Origin: Paracoccus sp. (in: a-proteobacteria)
GTDB taxonomy: Bacteria > Pseudomonadota > Alphaproteobacteria > Rhodobacterales > Rhodobacteraceae
Length of the DNA: 63,110 bases
NCBI RefSeq assembly: GCF_030538655.1
Contig: NZ_JAUNTO010000017.1
Span: 1 to 63,110, forward strand
Direction of reading: 5' to 3'
This document shows, piece by piece, positions 9,010 through 14,519 of this stretch. Both the position numbers and the translations under genes were made by a program. The notes under the pieces were generated by a model that saw nothing but the letters and a program-made list of their open reading frames with translations, was not told the origin of the DNA and did not search any database. Numbering within the stretch: position 1 is the stretch's first letter; each line of letters starts with the position of its first letter.

Positions 9010-10842
9010 ATGCTGGACGGTAAACCCCTCGTTTCCATCAACAATCTGCGGGTCGAGTTTCAGACCAACGATGGTGTCGTTGTCGGCGTCAACGACATTT
9101 CCTTCGACATCAAGCCGGGCGAATGCGTCTGTGTCGTGGGCGAATCGGGGTCGGGCAAGTCGGTGTCCTCGCTGGCGCTGATGCGGCTGGTCGAGTTCGG
9201 CGGGGGCGAGATTGCGGGCGGCAAGCTGATGTTCGACCGGGGCGACGGTGCGCCCATCGACATCGCCAAACAGGGCAGCGCCACCATGCGCGACATTCGC
9301 GGCAACCAGATCGGCATGATCTTTCAGGAACCGATGACCGCGCTGAACCCCGTTTTCACCGTCGGCGACCAACTGGCCGAGGGGTTGATCGTCCATCGCG
9401 GCCTGTCGCGCGCACAGGCCCGCGCCCGCGCGCTGGACATTCTGCGCGAGGTCCGTATCCCCGAACCCGAGCGTCGCCTTGACCAATACCCGCATGAGCT
9501 GTCGGGCGGGATGCGGCAGCGTGTTGTCATCGCCATGGCCATGGCCTGCGAGCCGCGTCTCTTGATCTGCGACGAGCCGACCACTGCGCTGGATGTGACG
9601 ATTCAGGCCGAAATCCTTGCCCTGATCGACCGCCTGAAACGCGACAACAACATGGCGGTGCTGTTCATCACCCATGACATGGCGGTGGTGGCGCAGATGG
9701 CCGACCGCGTGGTGGTGATGTTCCGCGGCAACAAGGTCGAGGAAGGCCCCGTCGCGCAAATCTTTGAAAATCCACGCCAGGATTACACGAAAATGCTGCT
9801 GGCCGCTGTCCCCCGTCTGGGCGAGATGACCGGCAAACCCGCGCCCGAGCGGATGCGACTGATGCGCGACGGCACGGCGGCCACGCCCGCGCCGATCATC
9901 GTCGCCGACCCCAGACCCTTGCTGACGGTCGAAAACCTGACCACCCGTTTCGCGGTCAAGGGCGGTATTTTGCGCCGCACCGTCGCCTATGTTCACGCGG
10001 TCGAGGACGTGTCCTTTACCATCAACGGCGGCGAAACCCTGTCTCTGGTCGGTGAATCGGGGTCGGGCAAATCGACGGCGGGGCGGTCGATCCTGCGGCT
10101 GGTCGAGCCGGAATCGGGCCGCATCGACCTGAACGGCACCGACGTCCGCGCCCTTGGCAGCGGGGCGTTGCGCCGCGCCCGCCGCGACATGCAGATGATC
10201 TTTCAAGACCCCTTCGCCAGCCTCGATCCGCATATGAAGCTGTTCGATCAAGTCGCTGAACCCATGCGCAATTTCGGCATCGGCACGCGCAGCGAACGCG
10301 AGGATCGCATCGCCGCCCTGTTCGACCGCGTGGAACTGCCCCGCCACTTCATGCGCCGCTATCCGCACGAGATGTCCGGCGGCCAGCGCCAACGCATCGC
10401 CATCGCCCGCGCCCTCGCCCTGAACCCGAAACTCATTATCGCCGACGAGGCCGTGTCGGCGCTGGACGTGTCGGTGCAGGCCCAAGTGCTGAACCTGCTG
10501 ATGGAACTGCAACAAGACCTCGGCATCTCGATGCTGTTCATTAGCCACGACATGGCCGTAGTCGAACGCGTCAGCCATCACGTCGCCGTGATGTATCTGG
10601 GCCGCATCGTCGAAATCGGCACCCGCCAGCAGGTCTTTGAAAACCCGCAGCACAGCTACACCCGCCAATTGATGAGCGCCGTCCCCGTCGCCGACCCGCG
10701 CCAGAAAAAGATCAGCGAAGACCTGAATTTCCGCCCGATCCCGTCTCCGATTCACCCGGTGGATTATGTCGCGCCAAAGTCGGTGTATCGCGAGGCGGCA
10801 CCGGGCCATAAGGTGCTGGTGGAGCCGGTGACGCATGGGTGA
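9010..10842 (+). CDS. Peptide ABC transporter, fused double ATP-binding protein (DppD-DppF type)
   Basis: A 610-residue protein with two complete ABC nucleotide-binding domains. The first has Walker A GESGSGKS (about residues 45-52), signature LSGGM and Walker [14 protein letters not shown]. The second, from about residue 305, has [17 protein letters not shown] and [14 protein letters not shown]. Each is followed by an oligopeptide-transporter C-terminal extension. An AAGGAA Shine-Dalgarno precedes the ATG. It would energise a peptide-type importer, most simply the one at 1.5-7 kb, which lacks its own ATPase. That pairing is inferred from proximity, since the tannase-like gene lies between them on the other strand. 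Confidence 0.93.
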   Translation: MLDGKPLVSINNLRVEFQTNDGVVVGVNDISFDIKPGECVCVVGESGSGKSVSSLALMRLVEFGGGEIAGGKLMFDRGDGAPIDIAKQGSATMRDIRGNQIGMIFQEPMTALNPVFTVGDQLAEGLIVHRGLSRAQARARALDILREVRIPEPERRLDQYPHELSGGMRQRVVIAMAMACEPRLLICDEPTTALDVTIQAEILALIDRLKRDNNMAVLFITHDMAVVAQMADRVVVMFRGNKVEEGPVAQIFENPRQDYTKMLLAAVPRLGEMTGKPAPERMRLMRDGTAATPAPIIVADPRPLLTVENLTTRFAVKGGILRRTVAYVHAVEDVSFTINGGETLSLVGESGSGKSTAGRSILRLVEPESGRIDLNGTDVRALGSGALRRARRDMQMIFQDPFASLDPHMKLFDQVAEPMRNFGIGTRSEREDRIAALFDRVELPRHFMRRYPHEMSGGQRQRIAIARALALNPKLIIADEAVSALDVSVQAQVLNLLMELQQDLGISMLFISHDMAVVERVSHHVAVMYLGRIVEIGTRQQVFENPQHSYTRQLMSAVPVADPRQKKISEDLNFRPIPSPIHPVDYVAPKSVYREAAPGHKVLVEPVTHG

Positions 10843-10847
10843 TCGCG

Positions 10848-11906
10848 CTACGGGTTCAGAGTATCGGGATTGTCGAGAGTTTCTTCTTGCTCTGAGGTTT
10901 CCTCGTGTGTCGCGCCTGTTTCCTGACTAGCTGCTCGCGCTTTCTCGCCTTCGAAATGGGCTAAAATTTTTTCTTTATGGTTCAGATAACTTTCAGGCGG
11001 CTCAGGTTTTTCGCAATTGTCATCAAGGGGTAGTGCGATGTCATCTGTGCCAACTAGACTACAATAGTCGTTCAGGTAGTCTAAGAGCGACTGATGGTCG
11101 GTGTTGTTCGCATTGCCATTCAGTAGCTGACGTTCCCGCCGTCTGACCTCTTTAGCGGGTAAATGATCCATCGTGTCAATAAACAGCTTTGGATACGGTT
11201 CGCCATGATTGACACCTTTTAGCTCTTCTGGCTTTTCGAATCTTATATCATGAGCAAAGCCAAGTCGTCCCCTGTTATTCAAAATCAGCCGTGCCGCTTG
11301 CACGCTAAGTAAAAATTTTTCAGGCGTCGCTTTGGATGCGACTCGAAACCCGGTGTCAATAGCTTTGCCAAGAAAGTCGTAATTGAAAGGTTCCATGTCT
11401 GCCGCGCATTCTAGTTCCTCTGTTGCAGAGGTGAATGCTTCCTGATTACCACGCCTTAGATGAACGGCCCTGTTTGGTTCCGGGAAGGCTGCAAGCCAAG
11501 CTGCCCCTTTGAGATTCAGGCTTAGCCCCTGATCGGAGAGTTCCTTTCGATATGCGTGCAAAGTCTCTATAAAAGATGAAAGCGCCGTCGCAGCCGATTT
11601 CTGACTGGTTACTCGGCCACAAAACACGAGTTCATCTCCGACAGCTTTCCAAAGCTCTGGGCAAGAATCATTTTCTGTTGCGGCTGTTCTGCATTGCAGG
11701 TAGCAGCTATTGAACCTTTCGGGAAAGCTGTCGTAAAACTTTTGAAACACCCTAACCCACTTTGGGGTTGGGTCGTCCTTTGTGTCTTGGCCAGTATCGG
11801 AATTTTTGAAAGCAGTTGAACCGCTCAGGTCAACGGATAGAAATATCCGAACTCTATATTCCGCCGGTGTGCCTCGTAATTCTTCTTTTTCGATTTTAGA
11901 GACCAA
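10848..11906 (-). CDS. Class III nucleotide cyclase-like protein, partner of the ImmA/IrrE peptidase
   Basis: A 352-residue soluble protein whose first 200 residues fit a class III (adenylate/guanylate) cyclase homology domain. The metal-binding pair is D26 in SVDLSGST and D91 in WKAVGDELVF. K87 occupies the purine-selecting Lys position. In YDFLGKAIDTGFR, D177, G180 and R188 keep the exact spacing of the base-selecting Asp, conserved Gly and transition-state Arg. The usual transition-state Asn is replaced by D184. Residues 210-352 are unassigned and end in an acidic, low-complexity tail. No membrane segment or signal peptide is seen. It overlaps the upstream metallopeptidase gene by 11 bases and ends 5 bases from the stop of the convergent ATPase gene. 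Base composition is clearly lower in GC than its neighbours (a sample line of 60 bases has 26 G+C, against 40 in the ATPase gene), which suggests transfer. The cyclase fold call is fairly firm; the product and role are open. Confidence 0.75.
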   Translation of the reverse strand: MVSKIEKEELRGTPAEYRVRIFLSVDLSGSTAFKNSDTGQDTKDDPTPKWVRVFQKFYDSFPERFNSCYLQCRTAATENDSCPELWKAVGDELVFCGRVTSQKSAATALSSFIETLHAYRKELSDQGLSLNLKGAAWLAAFPEPNRAVHLRRGNQEAFTSATEELECAADMEPFNYDFLGKAIDTGFRVASKATPEKFLLSVQAARLILNNRGRLGFAHDIRFEKPEELKGVNHGEPYPKLFIDTMDHLPAKEVRRRERQLLNGNANNTDHQSLLDYLNDYCSLVGTDDIALPLDDNCEKPEPPESYLNHKEKILAHFEGEKARAASQETGATHEETSEQEETLDNPDTLNP

Positions 11907-12429
11907 GGCTCTCTGCTCGTATCTTTGCCGCGGCTTCCGTTACGCCAAAAAATTGCCCTACTGTGCTGCGGTCGCTTTTGTAGAATTCGCTGAATTCTTT
12001 TTTTGGCATAAGAAGTGCTGCGGCGAACCAATTTGCTTCCCATTCGCAGCGGACCAAATCTTTATTATCTTTGTCAACCCATCTGGTTGCTCTCATGCCT
12101 TTGCCCGGATTTGCTTTTTTAACTTTCGGCCAATGCAGCAGCCTGTGCCCCAGTTCATGGGCTATGGTGAAATTATCACGCAGCGCGCCGGTATACGACG
12201 ATAGCCTTATCTTAAAAGAACCATCAGGCTCAACGATAATGGCATCAGTCTGGTCATCGTCTAAAAAGTCGATGTACTCGATTGTCCCTCGGTTTTTTCT
12301 GACGACATCGGCCAGTTGGAAGCCATTTTTCAGTCCTACTCTCTGGCGCTGCTCTTCTGCAAACTGCCAAATTGCAGACTTACTGGCCCGTGACGGGATT
12401 GGAAGACTGTAATCTGGACGATTGGACAT
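11896..12429 (-). CDS. ImmA/IrrE family metallo-endopeptidase
   Basis: A 177-residue protein with the zinc-protease motif HELGH at residues 91-95 inside FTIAHELGHRLLH. The downstream glutamate ligand sits in CEWEANWFAAALLMP (E131), both standard for ImmA/IrrE (Peptidase M78) proteins. The family cleaves repressors or regulates stress responses: ImmA cleaves ImmR in ICEBs1, and IrrE cleaves DdrO in Deinococcus. There is no repressor-type HTH domain in this protein and none encoded next to it, so the substrate is not evident. It is the first gene of an overlapping pair with the cyclase-like gene, and both share the lower GC content. It may regulate, activate or be controlled by the cyclase; this is inference. 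Confidence 0.88.
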   Translation of the reverse strand: MSNRPDYSLPIPSRASKSAIWQFAEEQRQRVGLKNGFQLADVVRKNRGTIEYIDFLDDDQTDAIIVEPDGSFKIRLSSYTGALRDNFTIAHELGHRLLHWPKVKKANPGKGMRATRWVDKDNKDLVRCEWEANWFAAALLMPKKEFSEFYKSDRSTVGQFFGVTEAAAKIRAESLGL

Positions 12430-12573
12430 GATTGTAACTCTGGCATCCTGCGTGGCGAACGAAATCGAGATGCTTGAACATTATTGCACGAGACTCCGGT
12501 GCGGTATTTTACTGTCGCCCGATTGGTGGTTGCCGTCAAGTCAGATCGCTAAATGTAGTTACCAGCCCAAAAA

Positions 12574-13101
12574 TCACCCCCGCTCCACCCTCCCCCTCGC
12601 CATCCGCACCCGCCCCTCAGCCTTGAACCGCCCCATCTCACTGCTCTCATCCCCCAGCGGGACGCCCGCACCGCTGCCGCTCCACGCCATATCCTCGCGC
12701 ATACCGGCCTCGACCATCTCGCGCGGCCCATCGGCCCACCATGGGCGCTGGCCGTCGTAATCCATCGGGTCGTCCTCGGTCCGGCGCAGATAGTCCATCG
12801 TCTCGGCGCCGTCGATCAGCCCGGCCAGCCGCGCGTGCATCCAGACCGACAGCACCCGGTTGACCCGAGGTTGCCAGTTCGTGCCCATTGACTGAAAGAA
12901 TTTCACGATGTCCTCGTCCAGCCGGATGGTCACGCGGCGGGTTTTGCCGGTGCCCTTGTCGCGCGCGATCTCGTGCCATCCGGCGGGGATGCGCATCTGC
13001 GACAGCAGGGTGTTGTGCAGATCCCATTCCAGCATCCGCATCGCATCGGCCATATAGTGATAGTTCTGCCGCCGCGCGGCCTCGGCCCTGGTGATCGCCA
13101 T
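12574..13101 (-). CDS. Orphan BrnA-type antitoxin (ribbon-helix-helix protein)
   Basis: A 175-residue protein. Its central part (RRVTIRLDEDIVKFFQSMG followed by WQPRVNRVLSVWMHARLAG) is the BrnA antitoxin/ribbon-helix-helix signature, in which the TIRLDED strand contacts DNA. The N-terminal 70 residues and the charged C-terminus are longer than in classical BrnA (about 90-100 residues). The ATG at 13101 was chosen because GGGGCAGATC precedes it; a longer open frame to 13359 covers the repeat array and is unlikely to be coding. No BrnT toxin gene is adjacent, so it may be a stand-alone DNA-binding regulator. Confidence 0.7.
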   Translation of the reverse strand: MAITRAEAARRQNYHYMADAMRMLEWDLHNTLLSQMRIPAGWHEIARDKGTGKTRRVTIRLDEDIVKFFQSMGTNWQPRVNRVLSVWMHARLAGLIDGAETMDYLRRTEDDPMDYDGQRPWWADGPREMVEAGMREDMAWSGSGAGVPLGDESSEMGRFKAEGRVRMARGRVERG

Positions 13102-13140
13102 GATCTGCCCCCTTGATCTGATGGCGGCATCCTGACCGGG

Positions 13141-13166
13141 CGCGGTTAACGCCCTGTTAACCACGC
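13141..13166. promoter_or_regulatory. GGTTAAC inverted repeat upstream of the BrnA-type gene
   Basis: A perfect 7-bp inverted repeat GGTTAAC / GTTAACC is separated by five bases (GCCCT) and flanked by a further CGC / GCG match. It is centred about 50 bases upstream of the ATG at 13101. It looks like an operator, perhaps for the ribbon-helix-helix protein itself. Confidence 0.5.
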
Positions 13167-13180
13167 GGGCGATACGGGCG

Positions 13181-13230
13181 GTGCACAGCCTGTGTACAGG
13201 TTGTGCACAACTGGTGCACCGGCTGTGCAG
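13181..13230. repeat. Five GTGCAC-type sites at an exact 11-bp period
   Basis: GTGCAC or one-mismatch variants start at 13181 (GTGCAC), 13192 (GTGTAC), 13203 (GTGCAC), 13214 (GTGCAC) and 13225 (GTGCAG), each 11 bases after the last. The central one lies in the perfect palindrome TTGTGCACAA at 13201-13210. The array lies in the 251-base divergent gap between the BrnA-type gene and the M20 amidohydrolase gene. The spacing of about one helical turn suggests cooperative binding of a regulator along one DNA face. Confidence 0.75.
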
Positions 13231-13352
13231 CGAAAAACCCGGCAATTGCTGGTCTTTACAGCACCTCCGTTGCGCTGCCCGGCCAAAGCAACGCGCGCCC
13301 CGTTGCGCAACACCCGCCCGCTGCCCTAATCTCGCCTCAAAGGAGTCCCACC

Positions 13353-14519
13353 ATGCCACCCAAAAACCGCTTCGCCGAATTGCTGCCCGAGATCACCGCC
13401 TGGCGCCGCGACTTTCACGAACACCCGGAACTGCTCTATGATGTCCACCGCACCGCCGCCCGCGTGGCCGAGCTGCTGCGCGAGTTCGGCTGCGACGAGG
13501 TGACCGAGGGCATCGGCCAGACCGGCGTGGTCGGGGTGATCCGGGGCCGCACCGATACCAGAGGCCGCGTGATCGGGCTGCGCGCCGATATGGACGCGCT
13601 GCCGATCATCGAACAGACCGGCCTTGACTATGCCTCGAAAACCCCCGGCAAGATGCACGCCTGCGGCCATGACGGCCACACCGCCATGCTGCTGGGCGCG
13701 GCCAAGTATCTGGCCGAGACCAGAAATTTCGACGGCACCGCCATCGTCATCTTCCAGCCGGCCGAGGAAGGCGGGGCAGGGGGCGACGCGATGATCCAGG
13801 ATGGGCTGACCGATCGCTGGGGCATTCAGGAATATTACGGCATGCACAACATGCCCGGCATTCCGGTGGGCAGTTTTGCGATCCGCGAAGGTGGGATCAT
13901 GGCCGCCGCCGACCAGTTCGACATCGTGGTGACGGGCAAGGGCGGCCACGCCGCCAAGCCGCAAGAGGTGATCGACACCGTTCTGGTGACCGCCCATATC
14001 ATCACCGCGCTGCAATCCATCGTGTCGCGCAATATCGACCCGCTGAAAAACGGCGTGGTCTCGGCCTGCGTGGTCACGACGGATTCGACGGCGCATAACG
14101 TCATCCCGCAGGTGGTCAAGATCAAAGGCACCGCCCGCAGCCTTGACCCGGATGTGCGCGATCAGCTGGAAGAGGGCATCACCCGCGTCGCCGTCAACAC
14201 CGCCGCTGCCTTTGGCGCCACCGCCGCCGTTACCTATGAGCGCGGCTATCCGGTCACGCGCAATCACCCGTCCGAAACCGGCTATGCCATTGATGTCGCA
14301 CGCGCAATATCGCCCGATGTGAACACCGATGTGGCCCCGATGATGGGCGGCGAGGATTTCAGCTATATGCTGGAATCGCGCCCCGGCGCCTATATCTTCG
14401 TCGGCAATGGCGACACGGCGATGGTCCACCATCCGGCCTATAATTTCAGCGACGAGGCGATCCCCTTTGGCTCAAGCTGGTATGCCGGTATGGTCGAATC
14501 GCGGATGCCCGCCGCATGA
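13353..14519 (+). CDS. M20 family amidohydrolase
   Basis: A 388-residue cytosolic metallo-amidohydrolase of the hippurate hydrolase/N-acyl amino acid hydrolase group. Seen motifs are the N-terminal RRDFHEHPELLYDVHRTA, the metal-binding CGHDGHTAMLLGAAKYL and QPAEEGGAGGDAMI, and the late metal motif MMGGEDFSYML. The dimerisation domain insert lies around residues 185-300. It would cleave N-acyl or aminoacyl amide bonds; the exact substrate cannot be read. The ATG at 13353 follows an AAAGGAG Shine-Dalgarno. It is the first of three genes joined by stop-start overlaps. Confidence 0.92.
   Translation: MPPKNRFAELLPEITAWRRDFHEHPELLYDVHRTAARVAELLREFGCDEVTEGIGQTGVVGVIRGRTDTRGRVIGLRADMDALPIIEQTGLDYASKTPGKMHACGHDGHTAMLLGAAKYLAETRNFDGTAIVIFQPAEEGGAGGDAMIQDGLTDRWGIQEYYGMHNMPGIPVGSFAIREGGIMAAADQFDIVVTGKGGHAAKPQEVIDTVLVTAHIITALQSIVSRNIDPLKNGVVSACVVTTDSTAHNVIPQVVKIKGTARSLDPDVRDQLEEGITRVAVNTAAAFGATAAVTYERGYPVTRNHPSETGYAIDVARAISPDVNTDVAPMMGGEDFSYMLESRPGAYIFVGNGDTAMVHHPAYNFSDEAIPFGSSWYAGMVESRMPAA

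Follow-up and report, generated by a model that had tools for sequence, protein, structure and literature searches.

A conserved gene pair of an M78 metallopeptidase and a class III cyclase-like protein as a candidate cyclic-nucleotide defence module

Introduction

CapP is activated by single-stranded DNA, and CapH with CapP is counted among regulators that accompany BREX, Pycsar, CBASS or DISARM and control such operons (excerpts of PMC13373217). ImmA cleaves ImmR, and the phages LE1 and phiC2 are among the elements reported to carry COG2856-Xre operons (excerpts of PMC2701414). In phiC2, a tcdB-like gene has been described as adjoining a DUF955 protease gene (review, excerpts of PMC4009436). 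As for cyclases, the transition-state Asn is not strictly defining for class III, such that Rv1900c carries His at this site (excerpts of PMC4886424).

Here, we analyzed a stretch of 63,110 nucleotides from Paracoccus sp. (contig NZ_JAUNTO010000017.1), hereafter the window, in which a protease gene is followed by a gene for a cyclase-like protein. This two-gene unit is conserved in bacteria, plasmids and phages. Judged from sequence and predicted structure, the pair is probably an undescribed anti-phage alarm system. No description of the protease-cyclase pair was found in the one open-access library searched, which is not proof of absence.

Results

The pair occupies a variable slot

The pair comprises two genes, 1.6 kb in total, and is the sole content of an extra segment.

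11896 to 12429, minus strand: protease gene, 177 aa, ATG start, first gene of the pair
10848 to 11906, minus strand: cyclase-like gene, 352 aa, TTG start, second gene of the pair
10843 to 12570, no strand: extra segment, in a slot that varies among congeners

The earlier note had described two AT-richer overlapping genes inserted 5 bases from the stop of an ABC ATPase gene, and this description was confirmed. The two frames in the ORF list overlapped by 11 nt, and the GC content over the pair was 0.47-0.50 (500-base windows), compared with about 0.62-0.67 in the near flanks. The stop of the convergent peptide-ABC ATPase gene (9010-10842) was located 5 nt from the cyclase stop. In the nearest relative by flank (G100, 87%), homology ended at 10823 and resumed at 12571. 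Besides the protease and cyclase genes, the neighbours in the window were the ABC ATPase gene and an ORF with a BrnA domain. This adjoining ORF (12574-13359) matched a BrnA-type antitoxin domain (Pfam, 1.1e-12), and a similar gene was present in G100.

Across the genus, the interval separating the ABC ATPase gene from the M20 peptidase gene (window 10843-13352; L144-L172 and L196-L225) behaves as a variable slot. Among 31 congeners, picked from the 125-genome genus set by flank similarity, the slot measured 59-168 bp in 15, and the others carried differing cargo. In ten congeners it measured 1.4-1.7 kb, where the scanned genes included one GGDEF and one PRC-barrel protein. The slot of G100 held two genes (L196:1705-3139) matching the PADLOC candidates PDC-M15A (1e-48) and PDC-M15B (7e-31), itself merely a candidate system. 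An MT-A70 type II methylase (PADLOC, 1e-104) occupied the slot of G094 (86%, next by flank), together with a BglII-family endonuclease (Pfam, 5e-22). The cargo of G086, third-nearest by flank and judged by eye, and that of G115 were unlike defence.

The neighbours of 46 non-viral paired loci comprised 161 proteins, of which 150 were scanned. At 1e-10, 47 PADLOC families were matched among these 150, compared with 3 among 112 neighbours of 26 unpaired loci; these figures are not protein counts, as several models can match one protein, and the unpaired loci used as control lie among core genes, not in a matched accessory context. The 25 families listed of the 47 include mad2, mad3, mad8, DruA, SspE, SspH, HEC-06, Aga_REase, PycTM and capP. 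Many paired loci adjoined ordinary housekeeping genes. By position and neighbours, the setting of the pair shows signs of being defence-like.

The first gene encodes a CapP-like M78 protease

The protease matched Pfam Peptidase_M78 (PF06114) with an E-value of 1.4e-15 and 57.6 bits against a cut-off of 22, and it contained the HExxH motif with a conserved Glu, in agreement with the zinc metallopeptidase proposed earlier.

12145 to 12159, minus strand: HELGH zinc/catalytic motif of the protease, residues 91-95, an intact HExxH

Among 69 paired relatives, H91 and E92 were each kept in 68, and H95 and E129 in all 69; we take E129 to be the third ligand. The best PADLOC model was capP (E 4.9e-17), and a profile of eight relatives matched CapP in the PDB (7t5t, E 3e-14), whose chain has 291 residues compared with 177 in the protease. 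The Pfam scan found no domain other than M78 and none that is nucleotide-binding.

The second gene encodes a protein with a predicted class III cyclase fold

In Pfam, NCBIfam and PADLOC, the cyclase-like protein had no match with an E-value of 1 or below; its match to phrog_18024 (function not known) had an E-value of 9e-36. Its AlphaFold model (pLDDT 91.7, pTM 0.89) gave the fold of a class III cyclase homology domain in fold searches, and absence of a cyclase fold was thereby ruled out. The cyclase hallmarks noted earlier were upheld by this predicted fold, although the domain spans residues of about 15-247 and not 1-200.

11166 to 11864, minus strand: cyclase homology domain, predicted fold, residues about 15-247
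11814 to 11843, minus strand: metal site 1, FLSVDLSGST, residues 22-31 including D26 (kept in 97/97 ungapped rows of 100)
11631 to 11639, minus strand: metal site 2, GDE, residues 90-92, with K87 before it (alignment of 100)
11343 to 11357, minus strand: DTGFR, residues 184-188, with Arg at the catalytic position (D184, G186, F187 and R188 each 100/100)
10848 to 11165, minus strand: C-terminal extension, from residue 248 onward, its last about 20 residues acidic and of low confidence

In metal site 2, G90 was kept in 99 of the 100 relatives and both D91 and E92 in all; position 87 was Lys in 96 and Arg in three. The protein thus carries the two metal-binding Asp (D26 and D91) and the catalytic Arg (R188) of class III, whereas Asp (D184) replaces the transition-state Asn in 100/100 relatives. 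We took the residue roles from the mammalian cyclase, with Lys and Asp presumably at the purine-specifying positions. Searches of PDB sequences gave no significant match; the best, Rv1900c (E 0.16), is merely suggestive, and this weak profile alignment placed D184 opposite its His and R188 opposite its Arg. Therefore, the class III assignment rests on the predicted fold. Because the metal Asp and the Arg are invariant even in clades without the protease, conservation argues for a catalytic protein.

The pLDDT fell to about 46-63 over the last 22 residues. The tail beyond the PYP motif had a median of 119 aa in the 69 paired cyclases compared with 84 aa in the 31 unpaired ones, and the median charge of the last 30 residues was -4 compared with 0. 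These longer and more acidic tails would fit a tail read by the protease, a comparison that is confounded by phylogeny.

Among 60 family members scanned, 18 Pfam families were matched at E<=1, with DUF2652 and nucleotide cyclase models absent from them; NUDIX was matched by two members. PADLOC PDC-S07 was matched over a C-terminal domain by three members (L112, L142 and L120). The phiCD27 member L120, the counterpart of phiC2 p41, had this PDC-S07-like domain with an E-value of 1.4e-5 and no Pfam family at 0.1.

The protease and the cyclase form a conserved two-gene unit

A single-sequence scan of genome contigs gave 42 pattern matches, none of which was confirmed, and no relative. An alignment scan of the genomes gave 172 relatives, of which the best 80 were used, and viral contigs gave 53. 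Searches of plasmids and phages each returned seven matching records. The protease gene was directly upstream in six of the seven plasmid and phage records opened, namely the Leptospira plasmids p5 and pLiSL40, the phages LE1 and phiC2, Tistrella pTM3 and Mycolicibacterium pMYCCH.02. The pTM3 record was without annotation, and its genes were called from ORFs and a profile. The Sphingomonas paeninsulae record held a cyclase relative without an upstream protease. If p41 of phiC2 (L009:3839-5425) is the tcdB-like gene of the review, it is a member of the cyclase family; given this membership and the PDC-S07-like domain of its phiCD27 counterpart L120, the tcdB-like label is then probably misleading.

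Altogether, the protease was located upstream on the same strand in 107 of 142 loci, and in 69 of 100 once these were collapsed at 85% identity. The collapsing removed four unpaired loci (L021, L051, L060 and L073), L021 being merged into a paired cluster. In the fetched stretches of the other 31 of the 100, no M78 match was found; L015, L016 and L093 end at contig ends. A quick tree placed 26 of these 31 in two clades, one mostly of Caulobacteraceae and the other of Sphingomonadales and Caulobacteraceae. The unpaired clades (e.g., L027-L043, L055-L057, L062-L068 and L072-L087) lie in syntenic chromosomal neighbourhoods, where by eye some neighbours resemble pyrE, pdxJ, acpS and spoT. These two protease-free clades may be housekeeping cyclases.

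The two genes of the pairs were tightly spaced. In 63 of the 69 pairs, and independently of the choice of start, the cyclase frame was open from no more than 5 nt past the protease stop; the median distance from this stop to the first conserved cyclase residue was 45 nt. The gap was at most 30 nt in 64 of the 69 (median -1), a figure biased by choosing the starts nearest the protease stop. Protease and cyclase distances across the 69 pairs showed a Spearman correlation of 0.46, compared with a maximum of 0.17 in 1000 permutations; shared host ancestry contributes to this value. No natural fusion ORF of the two proteins was found among the pairs. A one-chain model, joined by a short linker and built on seven joined rows, gave a pTM of 0.67 compared with 0.89 for the cyclase alone. 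As modelled, the two proteins did not dock confidently; this result lends no support to a stable complex and does not argue against transient cleavage.

The distribution was broad and patchy. Pairs were found in Pseudomonadota, Actinomycetota, Spirochaetota, Verrucomicrobiota and Planctomycetota, and in C. difficile phages. Because the identical gene order turns up in other phyla, the pairing exceeds chance, and chance co-occurrence was ruled out by this conserved order. An even draw of 385 genomes from the host's class contained 15 (own included) with members of the family, 17 genes altogether; the upstream protease was present for 12 of these genes, and of the remaining five, one lay at a contig end. 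In the genus, the family occurred in 2 of 125 genomes, own included. A pair unique to this genome, which would have spoken against the earlier proposal, is thus contradicted by the 69 paired loci among the 100 non-redundant relatives, as is a protein without the cyclase fold by the AlphaFold model. One genome (G463, 83% complete) carried three separate pairs (L180, L188 and L192).

A viral scan with the protease used the best 80 of at least 319 relatives, and the cyclase was present in 45 of the 79 new loci examined, mostly those closest to the window protease. Most of the 45 largest neighbour clusters came from the syntenic unpaired clades. Within these clusters, the paired loci shared the protease alone, with two exceptions: an ABC-ATPase family, at varying distances in five paired loci and one unpaired locus, and an antisense frame over the pair, in five. 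An HTH gene as a common neighbour of paired loci was found in none of these 45 clusters, and no CapH-type HTH repressor lay beside the window protease. Since no HTH partner is common to the paired loci, the cyclase is the obvious partner of the protease.

Some pairs adjoin a Pycsar effector gene

The pair had earlier been described as lacking a repressor gene and a Pycsar effector. This stood for the window pair, beside which no PycTM or PycTIR was recognised, as in most pairs; however, PycTM (PDLC02364) lay beside the pair in four records (L044, L052, L092 and L142; E 6e-20 to 1e-29), in each as the single match of the PADLOC model. Any match to this model occurred in 26 of 349 genomes of the phylum. 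In two Methylococcaceae loci (L044 and L052), the PycTM gene precedes the protease. In two viral contigs it lies beyond the cyclase: in L092 with a 4-nt overlap, and in L142 on the opposite strand at a distance of 28 nt. The PycTM proteins of L044, L052 and L092 were 19-23% identical to that of L142, which, with the differing arrangements, suggests separate acquisitions. The L092 PycTM had no match in plasmids, and the four PycTM proteins, used against viral contigs, recovered just two of the records already known.

Two cyclases that adjoin PycTM elsewhere (L246 and L247), taken as PycC-like, read VD(I/V)AAKL at the Asn/Arg site by eye. The cyclase family showed no profile similarity to them (hhalign probability 1.3%, with a thin two-row profile). 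None of the 60 family members matched a PADLOC cyclase model, PycC models being possibly absent from PADLOC. PDLC02360 and PDLC02361 were rejected as PycC models, being PrrC and PifA, and PDLC02362 is a short PycTM model matched in 0 of 289 genomes. The 50 fold-search matches listed contained no PycC structure, which excludes nothing.

The own genome contains a PycTM-like stretch (G000, contig C12:155952-156467, L260; E 2.8e-13) inside a 562-aa ORF. It was rejected as the partner of the pair, as a similar match occurs in the congener G058, which has no match to the cyclase family.

Discussion

We consider it likely that the pair is a cyclic-nucleotide defence or stress module, whatever its wiring. 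The earlier proposal of a signalling or defence module was strengthened as to defence by position, neighbours and the four PycTM loci, while its protease-as-effector version was weakened by the PycTM loci keeping the protease.

The pair may be a compact, horizontally spread module for stress or phage defence built on a cyclic nucleotide. The protease would be a CapP-like sensor, triggered by infection or DNA damage, and would then act by limited proteolysis of the partner cyclase, for which the C-terminal tail, extended in paired cyclases, is the simplest target. Cleavage of the tail would switch on nucleotide synthesis, and the messenger would drive an effector, which may be PycTM where it adjoins and elsewhere a protein encoded elsewhere in the cell. 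We infer those steps that go beyond the conserved unit, the predicted fold and the kept residues, and we hold the full chain from protease sensor through cyclase cleavage and messenger to effector only tentatively, at somewhat less than an even chance. Because the PycTM loci still keep the protease, a role as sensor or activator is favoured over that of a swappable effector. Against the favoured wiring stand the lack of confident docking, the change from Asn to Asp in all 100 relatives, the housekeeping genes beside many pairs, the recognition of an effector in only a minority of pairs and the cargo in G086 and G115 that does not resemble defence. Furthermore, the unpaired cyclases, if active, imply that the protease is unneeded for catalysis, which also counts against it.

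The foremost rival is a Pycsar-like arrangement, in which the cyclase senses infection and its cyclic nucleotide switches on the M78 protease as the effector, cleaving host or phage proteins. The layout of a cyclase and an enzyme with no third gene common to most pairs speaks for it, as do the kept catalytic residues of both proteins. However, the 177-aa window protease has no Pfam nucleotide-binding domain, and the protease is retained where PycTM is present, which an interchangeable effector would not need. We regard this arrangement as unlikely.

The protease could alternatively cleave a distant Xre-type repressor while the cyclase sets its activity, the pair controlling lysogeny, transfer or stress genes and not defence. 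Such regulation of mobile elements would suit the occurrence of pairs in Leptospira plasmids and in LE1 and phiC2, which are temperate phages, and ImmA-ImmR offers a precedent, with both phages listed for COG2856-Xre operons (excerpts of PMC2701414). The neighbours of the paired loci tell against it: the 45 largest clusters contain no common HTH neighbour, and an integrase was matched by just 2 of the 150 scanned neighbours of bacterial pairs. This explanation appears improbable. A toxin-antitoxin-like pair, in which a non-catalytic cyclase-fold protein binds and restrains a toxic protease, would suit the overlapping genes, the patchy distribution (2/125 genus genomes) and the three pairs of G463, but we consider it very unlikely given that the invariant metal Asp and Arg, kept also in the protease-free clades, argue for catalysis and that the one-chain model gives no confident complex.

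It is possible, though less likely than not, that protease-cyclase pairs make up a separate ancient class of cyclic-nucleotide immunity, spread across five or more phyla as well as C. difficile phages and defined by a metalloprotease with an Asp-for-Asn class III cyclase. Its messenger would possibly be unusual, either the protease would switch the cyclase or the messenger the protease, and PycTM would be an occasional add-on.

If the favoured reading is true, cyclic-nucleotide immunity would gain a protease-linked branch, and the pair would tie a CapP-type damage-sensing protease directly to a messenger-making enzyme. It would also give a function to a family that has no Pfam model match and is called hypothetical or unnamed in the annotated plasmid and phage records examined. 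With two genes in 1.6 kb, the pair is small, which eases its laboratory testing.

Compared with CapP/CapH, the window M78 protease matches CapP best in both PADLOC and the PDB and likewise adjoins a nucleotide-signalling gene, but it has no HTH partner, forms a single transcription unit with the cyclase and is shorter (177 compared with 291 aa). ImmA/ImmR and IrrE/DdrO share the M78 metallopeptidase family, whereas the window protease has no adjoining Xre repressor. IrrE carries a GAF-like domain, and the window protease has none.

Ma1120, Rv1900c, CyaB and CyaC share with the cyclase the fold, the two metal Asp, the Lys and Asp positions and the Arg, while the family has Asp for Asn (100/100) and its own C-terminal extension. 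It is also too distant in sequence from bacterial class III adenylate cyclases for a Pfam match. DUF2652 proteins are likewise uncharacterised bacterial class III-like cyclases without the Asn, but the mycobacterial ones carry Ile at this site (excerpts of PMC4886424) and the family has Asp. CBASS is characterised by a CD-NTase (cGAS-like), whereas the window cyclase is class III by predicted fold. As for Pycsar, the usual partner of the cyclase here is instead an M78 protease, and most pairs have no recognised effector. Nevertheless, both have a cyclase of class III fold within a small mobile operon, with PycTM beside the pair in four records, and the L246 and L247 cyclases also read VD(I/V)AAKL where canonical enzymes have VNxAaR.
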